NCBI GenBank assembly: GCA_022340465.1
Contig: JAJDNW010000010.1
Span: 1 to 33,366 of the forward strand
Direction of reading: 5' to 3'
DNA from: Deltaproteobacteria bacterium
GTDB lineage: Bacteria; Desulfobacterota; Desulfobacteria; Desulfobacterales; B30-G6
Length of the DNA stretch: 33,366 bases
The notes under the pieces are model-generated. The model was not told where the DNA came from. It saw only the letters and a list, made by a program, of their open reading frames with translations, and made no database searches. The position numbers and the translations under genes are program-made. This document shows positions 5,571 to 24,197 of this stretch, in pieces; position 1 is the first letter of the stretch, and every line of letters starts with the position of its first letter.

Positions 5571-6431
5571 CTATTGGTGGGCCTTGCGAATTTCGGCTTC
5601 GATCATCTGCTGAAGACTCTGCATGCCGCGGTTTTTCACCCGCTTGCCATTTAAAAAAACGGTCGGTGTGCCGCGCACGTCCGCGGTTCGGCCGTTGTTT
5701 AGATCCCTGGAAATCAACGCGGCGATTTCCGGCGATTTTCTGTCGGCTTCGAATTTAATAAGGTCCAGGTTGAGTTCCGTGGCGATTTCCTTCAGTTTTT
5801 CTTCATTCAGAGATCTGAAGTTTTTAAAAAGCAAGGCATGGAATTCCGGGAATTTACCCTGCTTGTCGGCGGCCAGGGCCGCGGTGGCGGCTTGCCTGGA
5901 GAACTTGTGGCTCGACAGGGGAAACATTTTAACGACCACCCTGACATTATCGGGATATTTTTCCAGCAACTGCCGGAATAGCGCTTCGAGTCGCGCGCAG
6001 TAAGGTCACTGGTAGTCGTCGAACACTGCAAGCGTAACCGGTGCATCCGGATTGCCTATGACGGGGGAACCCTCAGTGGATATCTCGCTGACCAGGTCGA
6101 TGCGAACCATTTTGACCCGTTGATCGTCTTTGCTGCTCAGAATCAGGAGATCCAGATCCTCGGCGAATGTCAGGCTGTCGAAATGGCTCCCCACTGTAAT
6201 CCGGTTGACCGGTTCGTTTCCCATGTTGGAATAGACCAGTACTTGGCCGGGGGTGAGAATGAACATCAGTTTGCCGTCCGGCGATGTATCCACATCCAAC
6301 GGCGGCTGTTGGAGATCGAACTGTTTCAGGGTCGTCGCTTCGATGTCGAGGGCTGCGGCGTGACCATTGGCCGTCAACAGCAACGCCGTCATTATGATCA
6401 GACAGAAGCATGGAGCGGTTTTGAATTTCAA
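5571..6431 (-). CDS. Exported DsbA-like thioredoxin-fold protein, predicted selenoprotein (UPYC active site, in-frame UGA)
   Basis: Two open segments in one frame are separated only by a UGA at 6008-6006. Read as selenocysteine, they give a 286-residue protein with Sec142. The start is TTG at 6431, 8 bases after a perfect AGGAGG, and gives a clear signal peptide (residues 1-26). Residues about 30-115 resemble a beta-propeller-like strand segment. The thioredoxin_4/DsbA domain follows, with GNPDAPVTLAVFDDYQ-U-PYC, a helical insert and the cis-proline loop GTPTVFLNG. UGA sits exactly where the nucleophilic Cys of CxxC belongs, and Cys145 is the resolving residue. A stem-loop directly after the UGA fits a bacterial SECIS. 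A nonsense mutation is the alternative, but both halves are well preserved. Confidence 0.88.
5969..6001 (-). promoter_or_regulatory. Candidate bacterial SECIS element for the UPYC gene
   Basis: Reading on the minus strand, ACTGC (6001-5997) pairs with GCAGT (5973-5969). GCGC (5996-5993) stacks directly on it and pairs with GCGC (5984-5981), leaving a 7-base bulge on one side. The apical loop is 8 bases and starts with G, about 14 bases after the UGA. This is close to the known bacterial SECIS layout, though the G is slightly nearer the UGA than the usual 16-37 bases. Confidence 0.55.
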
Positions 6432-6556
6432 CGTATTTTCCTCCTGATTCGCGGTTAAAAGATAGCGGAGAAATCGCGTTTCACATTTCCTGCACAACAG
6501 GGAACGTTTTTATATGATAGAGGGCTGATGGGTCAAACACAAATTGTTCCATGCTT

Positions 6557-17626: not shown

Positions 17627-17655
17627 TTGACATCCCCAAACGAATGGCCTTTATT
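17627..17655 (+). promoter_or_regulatory. Candidate promoter for the ahbB-like gene
   Basis: TTGACA (17627-17632), a 17-base spacer and TTTATT (17650-17655). Transcription would start at about 17662, right at the ATG at 17663, implying a leaderless or near-leaderless mRNA. No ribosome site is visible before that ATG. Confidence 0.4.
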
Positions 17656-17662
17656 GTCCCTC

Positions 17663-18130
17663 ATGCTGACAGACTTGGAAAAAAAAGTGGTTGCCGCTGT
17701 CCAGGGCGACCTGCCGGTCACTGCGGAACCCTATCGTGATATAGCCGACGATCTGGGGGTTTCCGAGGACACGCTGCTGAAAACCCTGAAAAGCCTCAGG
17801 GACAGGGGTATCATGCGGCGTTTCGGCGCTACGCTGCGTCATCAGAAATCCGGATTCAAGGCCAATGCCATGGTGGCCTGGCAGGTGGAAGCGGCGCGCA
17901 CCGACGAGGTCGGAGAGGTATTTGCCGCTTTCGGGGAAGTTTCCCACTGTTATCAAAGGAGCCCGGCCGAAGACTGGCCTTATAACCTGTATACCATGGT
18001 GCATGCTGTCGATGAGGACGAGTGCCGCGCGACAGCGGCGCGCATGGCCGAAAAGGCGGCGGTGCCGGTGTACACGCTGCTGTTCAGCCGCCAGGAGCTG
18101 AAAAAGACATCCATGCAATATTTCGTATAA
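17663..18130 (+). CDS. ahbB: Siroheme decarboxylase subunit (AhbB-like, Lrp/AsnC fold)
   Basis: A 155-residue protein of the Lrp/AsnC fold that in sulfate reducers decarboxylates siroheme to didecarboxysiroheme, an early step of the alternative heme pathway. An N-terminal winged helix (about 1-55) is followed by the RAM-like domain. This carries family hallmarks rather than plain regulator sequence: RRFGATLRHQKSGFKANAMVAWQV, VSHCYQRSPAEDWPYNLYTM and the C-terminus FSRQELKKTSMQYF. The ATG at 17663 matches the usual N-terminus; an upstream TTG at 17627 overlaps a -35-like box. AhbA and AhbB are homologous, so the subunit letter is less sure than the function. No partner subunit is in the window. 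Confidence 0.85.
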   Translation: MLTDLEKKVVAAVQGDLPVTAEPYRDIADDLGVSEDTLLKTLKSLRDRGIMRRFGATLRHQKSGFKANAMVAWQVEAARTDEVGEVFAAFGEVSHCYQRSPAEDWPYNLYTMVHAVDEDECRATAARMAEKAAVPVYTLLFSRQELKKTSMQYFV

Positions 18131-20177: not shown

Positions 20178-22175
20178 ATGAAGAGGACCGGACTGGCGCA
20201 CATTCTCTGCGCGGTTGATTTTTCGCAATTCTCATCGTTGGTTACGGCCTGGGGCATCTTATTCGCCCGGCGTTTCGATGCCCGTCTGACCGTCATGCAC
20301 ACGGTCTATTCCCCGGGCGACCCCATTTACGCTTCCGCTGAATTCGAACGGGGCGGCGAACAAGGCCGCCGGCTTGCCGAAGCCCGTGAAAAGCTGGCGA
20401 CCCTGATGCAGGGGTGTCCGGTCGACTGGGAGCCTTTGGTCGTGCCCGGCGACCCGGTGATAAAGGCGGCGGATGAAGCCAGGCGCCTGAAGGTCGACCT
20501 GGTGATTGCGGCAAGCCACGGCGTTTCGGCTTTCAAACGGCTGTTTATCGGTACCGTCGTCGAAAGAATGGCCCGCCGGGTGGCATGCCCGTTGCTGGTG
20601 CTGAGAAGTCTGCCACCGGAAGCCGGGAGTGACCGTATTGCCCGGCCGCCACTGGTGGAAAGGATCATGGCCGCCTGTGACCTTTTGGAATCCTCCGACA
20701 GTGCCGTGGGGCTGGCAGCCTTCCTGGCGCGGGCTTTCGATGCGGAGCTGCATCTGGCACACGTCATGGAGTCAGCGATCAACGAAGCCCTCGTGGACAG
20801 CACGGCCGGCCACTACGCCGACGTTCAGCAAACCCTGGCCGAGAAAACGGATATCAGGCTCAGGGAATGCATTCCTCGGGATGTCGCGGAAGAACTCAGG
20901 ATCCGTACGCTTCTGGAACAGGGAGCCCCGGGTGACCGGCTGCTGGTTGCTGCGGGAAAGACGGCGCCGGACATGCTCGTCATCGGTGTCCGGTATCACC
21001 ATGCCCTGGGAAAGCTGCTGATAGGTTCGACCACGGAAAAAATGTTGCGCCGGGCGCCGTGTCCGGTGCTGGCGGTGCCGGGCGCCGTTGTCGAAAAAAC
21101 GGGCAAAGCGTTTTCGGAAACCCTCAAAACCACCGGAATCGTCAGGGATCCCGTCTACATGGATCATGAAACCGCCCCGGGGCACCCCGAACAACCGGGC
21201 CGCCTCGCGGCCGTTTACGACGTACTGGACGACGGCCGGCTGGGCGATCATCTTGTCGTCGTTCCTCCACGCCGGGCGGAAGCCGAAGAGATCCTGGCGG
21301 TTCACTCCCGTGAATACCTGCAGCAGGTGGCCGCCAGCCGGCATCATGCCAGGGCCGCCCTGGCTCCGGATACGCCCGTGTCGAGGGGATCTTACCGGGC
21401 GGCGCTTTACGCCGCCGGCGGTTTGCTGGCGTTGATCGAGCGGGTGGTCGCGGGTGAGCTGAAAAACGGGTTTGCCCTGGTAAGGCCGCCCGGTCACCAT
21501 GCCGAACGCAATCGTGCCATGGGGTACTGCCTTTTCAACAACGTCGCCGTCGGTGCCGCTTATGCCCGCAATCTGTCAGGCATCGAGCGCATCCTGATCG
21601 TGGACTGGGATGTCCATCACGGCAACGGCACGCAGCATATCTTCGAAATCGACCCCACGGTGCTCTTCTTTTCAATACACCAATATCCCCATTTCCCCGG
21701 CTCCGGTTTCTTTACCGAGGTCGGCATGGGGGCAGGGGAGGGTTATACCGTCAACATTCCCCTTGCCGGAGGATACGGTTCGGGGGATTACGCAGAGCTG
21801 TTCGATCGGGTGCTGCGGCCGCTGGCTTACGAGTTCAAGCCGGACCTGATACTGGTTTCGGCCGGCTTCGACGTTCATTCTTCCGACCCGCTGGGAGGAA
21901 TGCGGGTGGACAGCGAGGGGATTGCCGTCATGACCCGGATTCTGATGGAAATTGCAGAAGAAACCTGCCGGGGGCGGCTGGTGTTTACCCTGGAAGGCGG
22001 TTACGATCTCGAGGCCATGGCCGGCGGCGTCAAAGCCGTTTTGCGTGAACTGACGGGACTTTCTGTTACAAACATCGCGAATTTCAGGAAAGAAACGGTT
22101 AAGCAAAAGCGGATAGCCACCGCTATTCAGCATCTGAAACAGGTGCACGGAAACTTCTGGCAGTGCATGCAGTGA
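20178..22175 (+). CDS. Fusion protein: two universal stress (UspA) domains plus histone deacetylase-like domain
   Basis: A 665-residue three-domain protein. UspA-1 (about 5-142) starts HILCAVDFSQFS and ends SHGVSAFKRLFIGTVVERM...CPLLVL. UspA-2 (about 155-300) ends IGVRYHHALGKLLIGSTTEKMLR. The C-terminal zinc deacetylase of the AcuC/acetylpolyamine amidohydrolase type (about 318-640) retains RPPGHHA, DWDVHHGNGT, the zinc Asp in SAGFDVHSSDPLGG and EGGYD, so catalysis is expected. It could remove acetyl groups from protein lysines or polyamines under Usp/ATP control, which is inference. The ATG follows GGAAAGGA. A small cysteine-rich gene begins 35 bases downstream. Confidence 0.93.
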   Translation: MKRTGLAHILCAVDFSQFSSLVTAWGILFARRFDARLTVMHTVYSPGDPIYASAEFERGGEQGRRLAEAREKLATLMQGCPVDWEPLVVPGDPVIKAADEARRLKVDLVIAASHGVSAFKRLFIGTVVERMARRVACPLLVLRSLPPEAGSDRIARPPLVERIMAACDLLESSDSAVGLAAFLARAFDAELHLAHVMESAINEALVDSTAGHYADVQQTLAEKTDIRLRECIPRDVAEELRIRTLLEQGAPGDRLLVAAGKTAPDMLVIGVRYHHALGKLLIGSTTEKMLRRAPCPVLAVPGAVVEKTGKAFSETLKTTGIVRDPVYMDHETAPGHPEQPGRLAAVYDVLDDGRLGDHLVVVPPRRAEAEEILAVHSREYLQQVAASRHHARAALAPDTPVSRGSYRAALYAAGGLLALIERVVAGELKNGFALVRPPGHHAERNRAMGYCLFNNVAVGAAYARNLSGIERILIVDWDVHHGNGTQHIFEIDPTVLFFSIHQYPHFPGSGFFTEVGMGAGEGYTVNIPLAGGYGSGDYAELFDRVLRPLAYEFKPDLILVSAGFDVHSSDPLGGMRVDSEGIAVMTRILMEIAEETCRGRLVFTLEGGYDLEAMAGGVKAVLRELTGLSVTNIANFRKETVKQKRIATAIQHLKQVHGNFWQCMQ

Positions 22176-22210
22176 ATCCCGACTTTGAAACGATTGCAGA
22201 GGAGTTCTTT

Positions 22211-22579
22211 ATGGACAAGGTTCGCATCATGGAGGCTTCGGTAAAAAAATGGCAACGCATCATCGACGGCAAGGGGAGCGACGGCGGTGTGCTGGATTGT
22301 CCGCCCTGCAGAATTTACTACGTCCTCGTCTGCTTTGGCTGCCCCATAGCAGAGTACACCGGGAAAAAATTCTGAAAGGACAGTCCTTATGTTGCCTGGT
22401 ACTGGCATCAAAACAATGTCCACGGTAAAATTCGCAAGAAGGTCTACTGCCCCGAATGCAGGCGGCTGGCAAAGGATATGCAGAATTTCATGATCGAAAT
22501 CCGCGACCACCTGATGCAGGAAAACGCCCGAAAAAAATCCGGATCGGCGGCAATGGACAAGAACGGGGAAACGGCATGA
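22211..22579 (+). CDS. Small cysteine-rich protein with in-frame UGA at codon 55, candidate new selenoprotein
   Basis: Two open segments in the same frame meet at UGA 22373-22375. Read through, they give 122 residues: CPPC (30-33), CFGCPI (41-46), EYTGKKF then U55, KDSPYVAWYWHQ, and CPEC (80-83), with a charged helical tail. I recall proteins with a C-x-x-C, C-x-G-C-P, TG-xxx-C-xx-(S/T)PY pattern in which Cys occupies the U55 position. No function is known to me; zinc or metal binding is likely. The ATG at 22211 follows AGAGGAG at 6 bases. A stem-loop after the UGA fits SECIS rules. A nonsense mutation is the alternative, but 67 further sense codons and a preserved CPEC argue against it. Confidence 0.75.
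22376..22407 (+). promoter_or_regulatory. Candidate bacterial SECIS region after UGA of the CPPC protein gene
   Basis: TGCC (22393-22396) pairs with GGCA (22404-22407) around the 7-base loop TGGTACT, which has G in its second position 23 bases after the UGA. This matches the published spacing and loop rules for bacterial SECIS. Directly after the UGA is also a perfect AAGGA/TCCTT hairpin (22376-22388), an alternative or lower structure. Confidence 0.5.
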
Positions 22580-22592
22580 GGGTAAAGACGCG

Positions 22593-24197
22593 ATGCAACT
22601 TCTTTTTTTCACGGCTGTCTTCACATCGATAGCGGAAATCGCAACCTTCTGCTCGGTGGGATTCATGCTTTGCCGGGGATGGAATACCACCTTTGCGGAA
22701 GCGGTTTCCTATGCCGTCGTTACGACCCTGATGCTGCTTTCACTGCTTTTTCAAATGGCTATGGTGAGCGGGTTGCACGGTCTTCTCACCGTGGTGGAAA
22801 TCGTTCTGCTGGCCGTGTCCGCAGGTTTCCTCTGGAGACGCCGTTCTCAATTCGGAAGGGAGTCAGCAGCCTTCTTCACGTTTTGGAAGGCAAATCCTCT
22901 GGCCGTGTCCGCAATCGCCTTGGGGCTGGTTTATATGGTCGCCCTGGCGTTGAGCATCCCCCCGGACGCGGCCGGCTGTAAACAGCTCAACCAGATCGTT
23001 TACTTGCGGGACAACGGTATTTGGGCCGCGCCGGCCGCATCGCACGGCATGCCGGCCTTTTTCCCGTTCAACCACGCCGCCCTGGCTTACATGTTCCTCC
23101 GGTTTGACACCGATGTGGGCGTCAACCTGTTCGGCTTGATGGCCTACGTCTCCATTGCCGGCAGCACCTATGCTCTGGCCCGGCGCTATGCCTGGCCGCC
23201 CACCGCACTGACCGTCTCCCTGATTGTACTCAGCATGCCGCGGATGGTGTATCAGGCGACGACGCCGGGAGGCGAGATCGTTCCGGTGGCCGTCGGGCTT
23301 TTTTGCCTGTTGGCGGTGTACCGGATCGTGGAAAGATTGAACATCAATGAACTGCTTCTACTAGTGGTGGGAATCGCATTTGCCGTTTCAGGTGAAAAAG
23401 CGGAGTTGATCTTTCCGACGCTGGTGTTGGTGCTTGCCTGGGTGCTGCTTGTTCGACGGCACGGCAGTGTCACCCTGCTGTCGCTGGTATCGGGCCACAA
23501 GGCCAGGACCCTGGCCGCCATCCTGCCTCTGCTGTTGTTTTCCCAGGTGTGGCTGGTGGCGATCAATGTCGCTCACGGGAATGATTGGCTCGGAAGTCAG
23601 GCGGCGTTCGGCCCGTTTTACAACCAGGATGGTTTGCAGGGCGCCCTGGCCAATGCTGTCCGCTATACACTGGAATCCATACACCTGACACTGCCGGCGG
23701 AACTTTTTTGCAGCAGGGTGTTGGGGTTCAGCCCGATTGAATTGCTGCAATGGCTTTACGGCCTTTTACCAGGCTATCTTGACGGTACGGCCGGAGCGAC
23801 GGAACCGTTTGCCATCACATGGGCGCCCGGCGGTTCCCAGTCATGGTTCGGTCCCTTCGGGTTTTTACTCATTTTTCCGGCGATGGTGTACGCCATTTTG
23901 AGGGGGCCGCGCAGGCTGAAAGCTGTCGCCGTAGCCTTGACCGGCTACTGTTACCTCGTTAGCCTCGTGTATGCGTGGTCGCCGGGAAACGCCCGCCTTT
24001 TTTCCCTTTTTTTCGGCTGCGCCGGTTTCAGCACCGCCTTCCTTCTCCCACCCTGGCGCTTATCGCTCAGGGGCAAACGGGTGCTCCAAATCATGTGCAT
24101 CATCCTGTTCTTTTATGCCCTGACATGCAACACCGCCAGGCCTCTGTTCCGCATGGGCACACCCGCGGCTAATACAGGTTTTCGCCTTTTCGAATAA
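22593..24197 (+). CDS. Polytopic membrane protein, possibly glycosyltransferase C-like
   Basis: A 534-residue protein with ten or more hydrophobic helices spread over its whole length and a larger extra-membrane loop at about 125-155 containing LRDNGIWAAPAASHGMPAFFPFNHAALAYMF. The layout (acidic/polar first loop, then many helices, with a second polar region at about 320-420) recalls lipid-linked-sugar glycosyltransferases of the GT-C fold. No diagnostic motif lets me name a family. The ATG lies 13 bases after the cysteine-rich gene, so it is probably translated from the same mRNA. Its 3' end overlaps the convergent aminotransferase by 29 bases. Confidence 0.75.
   Translation: MQLLFFTAVFTSIAEIATFCSVGFMLCRGWNTTFAEAVSYAVVTTLMLLSLLFQMAMVSGLHGLLTVVEIVLLAVSAGFLWRRRSQFGRESAAFFTFWKANPLAVSAIALGLVYMVALALSIPPDAAGCKQLNQIVYLRDNGIWAAPAASHGMPAFFPFNHAALAYMFLRFDTDVGVNLFGLMAYVSIAGSTYALARRYAWPPTALTVSLIVLSMPRMVYQATTPGGEIVPVAVGLFCLLAVYRIVERLNINELLLLVVGIAFAVSGEKAELIFPTLVLVLAWVLLVRRHGSVTLLSLVSGHKARTLAAILPLLLFSQVWLVAINVAHGNDWLGSQAAFGPFYNQDGLQGALANAVRYTLESIHLTLPAELFCSRVLGFSPIELLQWLYGLLPGYLDGTAGATEPFAITWAPGGSQSWFGPFGFLLIFPAMVYAILRGPRRLKAVAVALTGYCYLVSLVYAWSPGNARLFSLFFGCAGFSTAFLLPPWRLSLRGKRVLQIMCIILFFYALTCNTARPLFRMGTPAANTGFRLFE

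Follow-up and report, generated by a model that had tools for sequence, protein, structure and literature searches.

A candidate selenoprotein with an in-frame TGA in a family of small cysteine-rich proteins

Does the TGA at 22373-22375 of this DNA end a short gene, or does it encode selenocysteine (Sec)? The whole stretch of DNA that was analyzed, 33,366 nucleotides in length, is referred to here as the window. On its plus strand, positions 22211-22579 can be read as one frame of 122 residues in which this TGA, at residue 55, is the single internal stop codon. A sequence-only reading had proposed the frame as a new selenoprotein. The present analysis supports the proposal, and none of the three findings named beforehand as contrary to it (a genome lacking selA, selB, selC, and selD; homologs without Cys at position 55; close strains with a normal codon here and decay elsewhere) was obtained. 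From the comparisons described below, we infer the insertion of Sec and the biochemical role of the protein, and we consider that 22211-22579 probably encodes a true selenoprotein.

The candidate gene and its cysteine-containing relatives

The candidate gene is preceded by a ribosome-binding-site-like GAGGAG (22199-22204, plus strand), with the ATG 6 bases further on. The product reads MDKVRIMEASVKKW...CPPC...CFGCPI...TGKKFUKDSPY...CPEC..., in which CPPC occupies residues 30-33, CFGCP residues 41-45, the proposed Sec residue 55, SPYVAW residues 58-63, and CPEC residues 80-83. The frame ends with a terminal TGA at 22577-22579. When re-read from the sequence, the frame, its coordinates, and the motifs on either side of the UGA were as originally described. 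Homologous coding sequence is present on both sides of the in-frame UGA, as is the case for bacterial selenoprotein genes, and no further internal stop or frameshift is seen. The source genome is a draft of 4.39 Mb in 162 contigs and is 95% complete.

Relatives were collected from samples of genomes. Two sets of same-order genomes, first 146 and then 389, were searched with the protein, and matches were found in 28 and 58 genomes, respectively, with the window's own genome counted. A profile search of 389 genomes drawn from the class gave matches in 59 genomes, one of them new, and a draw of 395 genomes from the phylum gave matches in four, of which G758 was new, with a distant relative (e-value 1.4 × 10−11). 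These draws are samples, and the order comprises more genomes than the 389 searched. The same-order relatives that were read number 58 (43 full length, 1 partial, and 14 additional), and every one of them has Cys at the column of the TGA. TGA flags on other matches of the order and class draws are terminal stops, according to their sequences. Cys at this site in relatives had been stated in the sequence-only reading, and this proved right in all 58 same-order relatives and, by eye, in the distant one.

The Cys-form orthologs from the same order show 58-74% identity to the window protein and differ from it in having Cys instead of the TGA at residue 55. They constitute an unnamed family, for which no fitting Pfam or NCBIfam model was found. 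Its members are small (about 110-130 residues) and Cys-rich, and nearly all of those found here belong to a single bacterial order. Seven Cys/Sec positions (30, 33, 41, 44, 55, 80, and 83) and two His positions (66 and 71) are invariant when the 43 full-length relatives are compared. A selA gene scored above the cut-off in all 33 Cys-form genomes tested among the 58. The distant relative in G758, from the same phylum, retains CPLC...CPI...C.ATPY.DW...CPECLRLA and matches the family profile with the e-value given above; it differs in having insertions, and its genome has no selA match. This locus (L122), with C.ATPY and CPECLRLA, points to a wider Cys-rich family. The placement of the window sequence by FastTree was set aside, with the support of 0.167 at the last node.

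A Sec form in at least one other species is the usual support for a new selenoprotein, though not a strictly defining one. It was found neither in a pattern scan of genome contigs from 84,980 species, a collection that may omit the window's own genome and those very near to it, nor, beside the window, among the matches from the three draws (order, 58; class, 59; phylum, 4). Three of the nine new selenoprotein families in Table 3 of PMC12013277 lack a Sec form conserved in another species. The scan pattern matches the window in its TGA form and 54 of the 58 relatives in its TGN form, which makes the scan sensitive, not complete; L053, L127, L129, and L131 are missed because they have AY in place of PY. 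In a stricter version of the pattern, the TGN form matched all 28 family loci of the first draw, and the TGA form matched the window. Searches of phages and viral contigs with the window protein, and of plasmids with the protein of a relative, gave no match. Two congeners (G001 and G002) and a member of the same family of organisms (G003) have no match to the candidate protein at an e-value of 0.001 or lower, nor to the downstream membrane protein, which indicates that the cluster is patchy. No close strain in which the codon is normal and the gene decays elsewhere was found among them; this is a thin test, since all three lack a match.

Downstream from the UGA, 17 of the 19 columns conserved at 90% or more in the 43 full-length relatives are kept in the window, with D57 for G and M102 for K as the two departures. 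All 10 invariant columns past the UGA (Y60, W63, H66, H71, C80, C83, A87, M90, M94, and I97) are kept. Judged from this alignment, the coherence of the protein past the UGA is more than chance. In comparison with nine chosen relatives, dN past the UGA is 0.23-0.34. The dS value past the UGA was computable in one of the nine (1.2), the others being saturated or undefined, and that ahead of the UGA was computable in five of the nine (1.6-2.3). Synonymous sites are thus close to saturation or past it, unlike the protein, and no firm dN/dS ratio is claimed because dS is saturated or undefined in most comparisons. The terminal branch of the window sequence is 0.34 past the UGA, the third longest of 44, and 0.11 ahead of it, the eighth of 44. 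The long branch past the UGA could reflect SECIS-driven change or some relaxed selection.

Selenocysteine decoding and the hairpin after the TGA

The genome encodes the machinery for Sec, since selA (592.6 bits), selB (374.5 bits), tRNA-Sec (selC; 75.4 bits), and selD (385.9 bits) were all detected above their curated cut-offs. The selD gene (G000 C13 29872-30798, L123) is itself a selenoprotein gene, with a TGA at the UASK motif.

A second replacement of Cys by UGA, previously noticed 16 kb away from the candidate, is real. On the minus strand, the stop-to-stop frame 5574-6509 encodes a DsbA-like thioredoxin-fold protein (PF13462 and PF01323), with the TGA at 6006-6008 in the motif DYQUPYC. 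Some match to this protein, in many cases a weak one, was found in 15 of 20 genomes searched, its own genome counted. Nine relatives were displayed: the TGA is at the same place in six (G001, G002, G003, G005, G010, and G011) and Cys forms are present in three (G017, G016, and G009), and in two further loci, L069 and L073, the motif was not matched. The TGA common to six of the nine displayed relatives indicates that the lineage does use Sec, and Sec decoding in the lineage is well supported. The protein belongs to DsbA-like form 1 (PF01323, UxxC), already a listed selenoprotein family in Table 1 of PMC13188914. It is similar to the candidate in having TGA for Cys in the same genome, and differs from it in the thioredoxin fold, the UxxC motif, and the unrelated sequence. 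A conforming hairpin follows the TGA of the DsbA-like genes, with the loop AGUU in the window and AGUU or AGGU in the relatives. The UPYC gene is a useful control within the window. In 8 other TGA read-through frames, a subset of those in the window, no Pfam domain extends across a TGA.

Folding under the constraints in section 5 of PMC13188914 revealed a SECIS-like hairpin at 22378-22421 on the plus strand, just downstream from the candidate TGA. It has a five-pair outer stem (22378-22382/22417-22421), an upper stem of two pairs (22390-22391/22409-22410) plus four pairs (22393-22396/22404-22407), and a 7-nt apical loop, UGGUACU, at 22397-22403. The distance from the UGA to the loop is 21 nt, and G is found at loop positions 2 and 3. 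The first of them, G22398, is 23 bases past the UGA, exactly where a stem-loop with G in the second loop position had been reported from the sequence alone. The loop fits N1-G-[G/U]-N-N2, in which U and A could pair. The hairpin agrees with all four published bacterial SECIS criteria of PMC13188914, where the legend of Fig. 2 gives the bSECIS constraints as a loop of 3-9 nt, an upper stem of 4-16 bp, a G in the first two loop positions, a distance of 16-37 nt from the UGA, and an energy of −7.5 kcal/mol or lower. Its constrained score was −9.9 in our own scan, used as a stand-in for bSECISearch.

The 49-nt fold has an energy of −13.9 kcal/mol (z = −1.96), and 11 of 200 dinucleotide shuffles fold as well. 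Among 400 synonymous recodings, 40 score as well as the native hairpin and 133 pass −7.5; because so many recodings reach this threshold, the fit to the SECIS criteria is weak evidence. The recoding test is in turn weak, with little power, because the better-supported SECIS of the DsbA-like gene also fails it (114 of 400). When the same stretch was scored in the 43 Cys relatives, one scored better and eight passed −7.5, which places the window second of 44 by model energy. The minimum free energy (MFE) of the 57 nt past the codon gives no separation, with −13.9 for the Sec form versus −4.5 to −18.1 for the 43 Cys forms. Unlike the DsbA-like genes, the MFE fold of SelD shows no loop at the model's distance that has a G in either of its first two positions, and the SECIS matching is thus shown to be loose. 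Rfam yielded nothing at gathering scores. The hairpin is compatible with a SECIS; it is not statistically outstanding, and it is not proof. Within 22391-22407, the apical loop UGGUACU and the hairpin's 3′ arm are coded by a common WYWH stretch, often UGGUACUGGCAC in the Cys forms; a switch from Cys to Sec may have needed few base changes.

Family identity and gene neighborhood

In Pfam and NCBIfam, every match listed for the window protein falls below the curated cut-off, and other Cys-rich families (PF21276, PxxKW, lxa_BCAM0308, and others) were rejected for this protein on that ground. For the other 16 family members, the best e-values are 0.00034 in Pfam (PF21276) and 0.14 in NCBIfam, the window's own apart. 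Matches in PHROGs are weak (best e-value 0.016), and the profile search against PDB gave one weak match, ribosomal L40e, with the e-value 0.68. A single-sequence structure model was set aside (mean pLDDT 44).

The sequence-only reading knew of no listing of this protein type as a selenoprotein. This held against NCBIfam 20.0 and against Table 1 of PMC13188914, a 2026 catalog of 119 selenoprotein families and subfamilies, in which nothing fits on comparison by name and motif only. No report of the candidate protein as a selenoprotein was found in open-license PMC literature; the supplementary tables of PMC8318568 and PMC12013277 carry further putative selenoproteins and may already list it. The hypothetical proteins DF, DG, and DW and the dual CXXC motif small protein (NF049942, NF049953, and NF041197) are comparable as selenoproteins of no known function, and DF, DG, and DW are recorded from Desulfosarcina and Desulfosediminicola (PMC12013277; Table 1 of PMC13188914). 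None of these three models is among the NCBIfam matches of the window protein (limit e-value 10) or of the 17 family members (limit e-value 1); the presence of the model in the NCBIfam library used was confirmed for DF alone. DF (NF049942) was rejected, since its cut-off is 70 bits and the only match in the genome, at C56 and not at the candidate gene, reaches 22.6 bits. DG (GUxG), DW (GxU), and NF041197 (RxU) were rejected as well, their listed Sec motifs being a misfit to KFUKDS; no motif is listed for DF. The candidate is most likely a so far unlisted selenoprotein, whose family was seen with Sec in a single genome and elsewhere only with Cys.

The neighborhoods of 16 of the 58 relatives were compared with that of the window. 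The upstream neighbor (20178-22175, plus strand) is a fusion that joins a universal stress protein (Usp) part (PF00582) and a histone-deacetylase-family domain (PF00850), with counterparts in 15 of the 16 relatives. Both parts are thus present in 16 of the 17 neighborhoods and absent in L108; they are encoded by separate genes in 12 and fused in 4, the window included. The downstream neighbor (22593-24197, plus strand), whose ATG follows the stop of the candidate gene after a gap of 13 bases, is a membrane protein with 11 hydrophobic segments in a simple hydropathy scan and no Pfam match, and it is present in all 17 neighborhoods. Both flanking genes in the window are open frames of normal length, and the gene order of the family is kept. 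No description of a cluster of Usp, histone-deacetylase-like, small Cys-rich, and membrane protein genes was found in open-license PMC literature. Elsewhere in the window, 17627-18130 encodes NirDL-like HTH and AsnC-like ligand-binding domains of the siroheme-decarboxylase type, in frame with an IF-2B-family gene just upstream.

Alternative explanations, possible role, and significance

A one-base sequencing or assembly error could have turned TGT or TGC into TGA, in which case this would be an ordinary Cys form. In favor of an error are the draft state of the genome (162 contigs), the Cys present in each of the 58 same-order relatives read, and the failure of the 84,980-species scan and of the order, class, and phylum draws to reveal another Sec form. 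The codon itself speaks against it. Among one-base routes to any stop, given as means over the 43 relatives and unweighted by mutation type, TGA at this Cys takes 1.0 of 48.9 and TGA at any Cys takes 7.1 of 48.9, so that a random error or nonsense change is an unlikely way to arrive at exactly this TGA. In addition, this genome has Sec decoding, and a hairpin that conforms to the SECIS criteria lies downstream from the TGA; an error is regarded as improbable.

The same low codon-route odds weigh on a recent nonsense mutation, in which the gene would be starting to decay without Sec insertion. Such decay would suit a cluster that is dispensable, as suggested by G001, G002, and G003, which lack both the candidate gene and its downstream neighbor, and it would also suit the long branch past the UGA. 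However, the gene has no additional stop or frameshift, all the invariant columns past the UGA are kept, and both neighbors are open frames of normal length; decay is accordingly very improbable. It is hardly credible that the UGA is a true stop and that the 54-residue N-terminal product is the functional protein, because the 43 relatives show an invariant C-terminal half that includes H66, H71, and CPEC and is still conserved in the window, even though two complete Cys pairs (CPPC and CFGC) lie within the first 54 residues. Sec at residue 55 is the preferred reading.

With Sec at this position, the ribosome would reach the UGA at 22373-22375, SelB bound to the hairpin at 22378-22421 would deliver Sec-tRNA, Sec would be inserted at residue 55, and translation would continue to the TGA at 22577-22579. 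According to PMC13188914, most uncharacterized selenoproteins probably serve redox functions, and in line with this view, residue 55 is taken to be either a working thiol or a metal ligand of a special kind. It may be a thiol(ate), redox-active or metal-binding, for which selenium is an advantage. The CPPC, CxGC, and CPEC pairs, together with H66 and H71, look like zinc or Fe-S ligands, and the weak zinc-finger and zinc-ribbon matches of the window protein, all below the cut-off, would fit a metal-binding protein. A more specific and rather unlikely proposal is that Sec acts as a ligand to a metal, or as a redox switch beside metal-binding Cys pairs, in a small zinc-ribbon-like protein functionally tied to the Usp/histone-deacetylase-like and membrane proteins. 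Such a protein would stand outside the thioredoxin-fold and redox-enzyme types that form most known selenoproteins.

If the candidate is a true selenoprotein, the known bacterial selenoproteins would gain one family. Gene callers that treat UGA as a stop cut such a gene short, and the Sec form would thereby be missed by ordinary annotation. The apparent switch from Cys to Sec took place among Cys relatives that themselves own the Sec machinery, as indicated by selA in all 33 Cys-form genomes tested among the 58, and the switch is therefore open to study. If the Sec is real, it would mark residue 55, invariant in an otherwise uncharacterized family, as chemically critical, and this residue would offer a direct handle on the function of the conserved cluster of Usp/histone-deacetylase-like, small Cys-rich, and membrane proteins.
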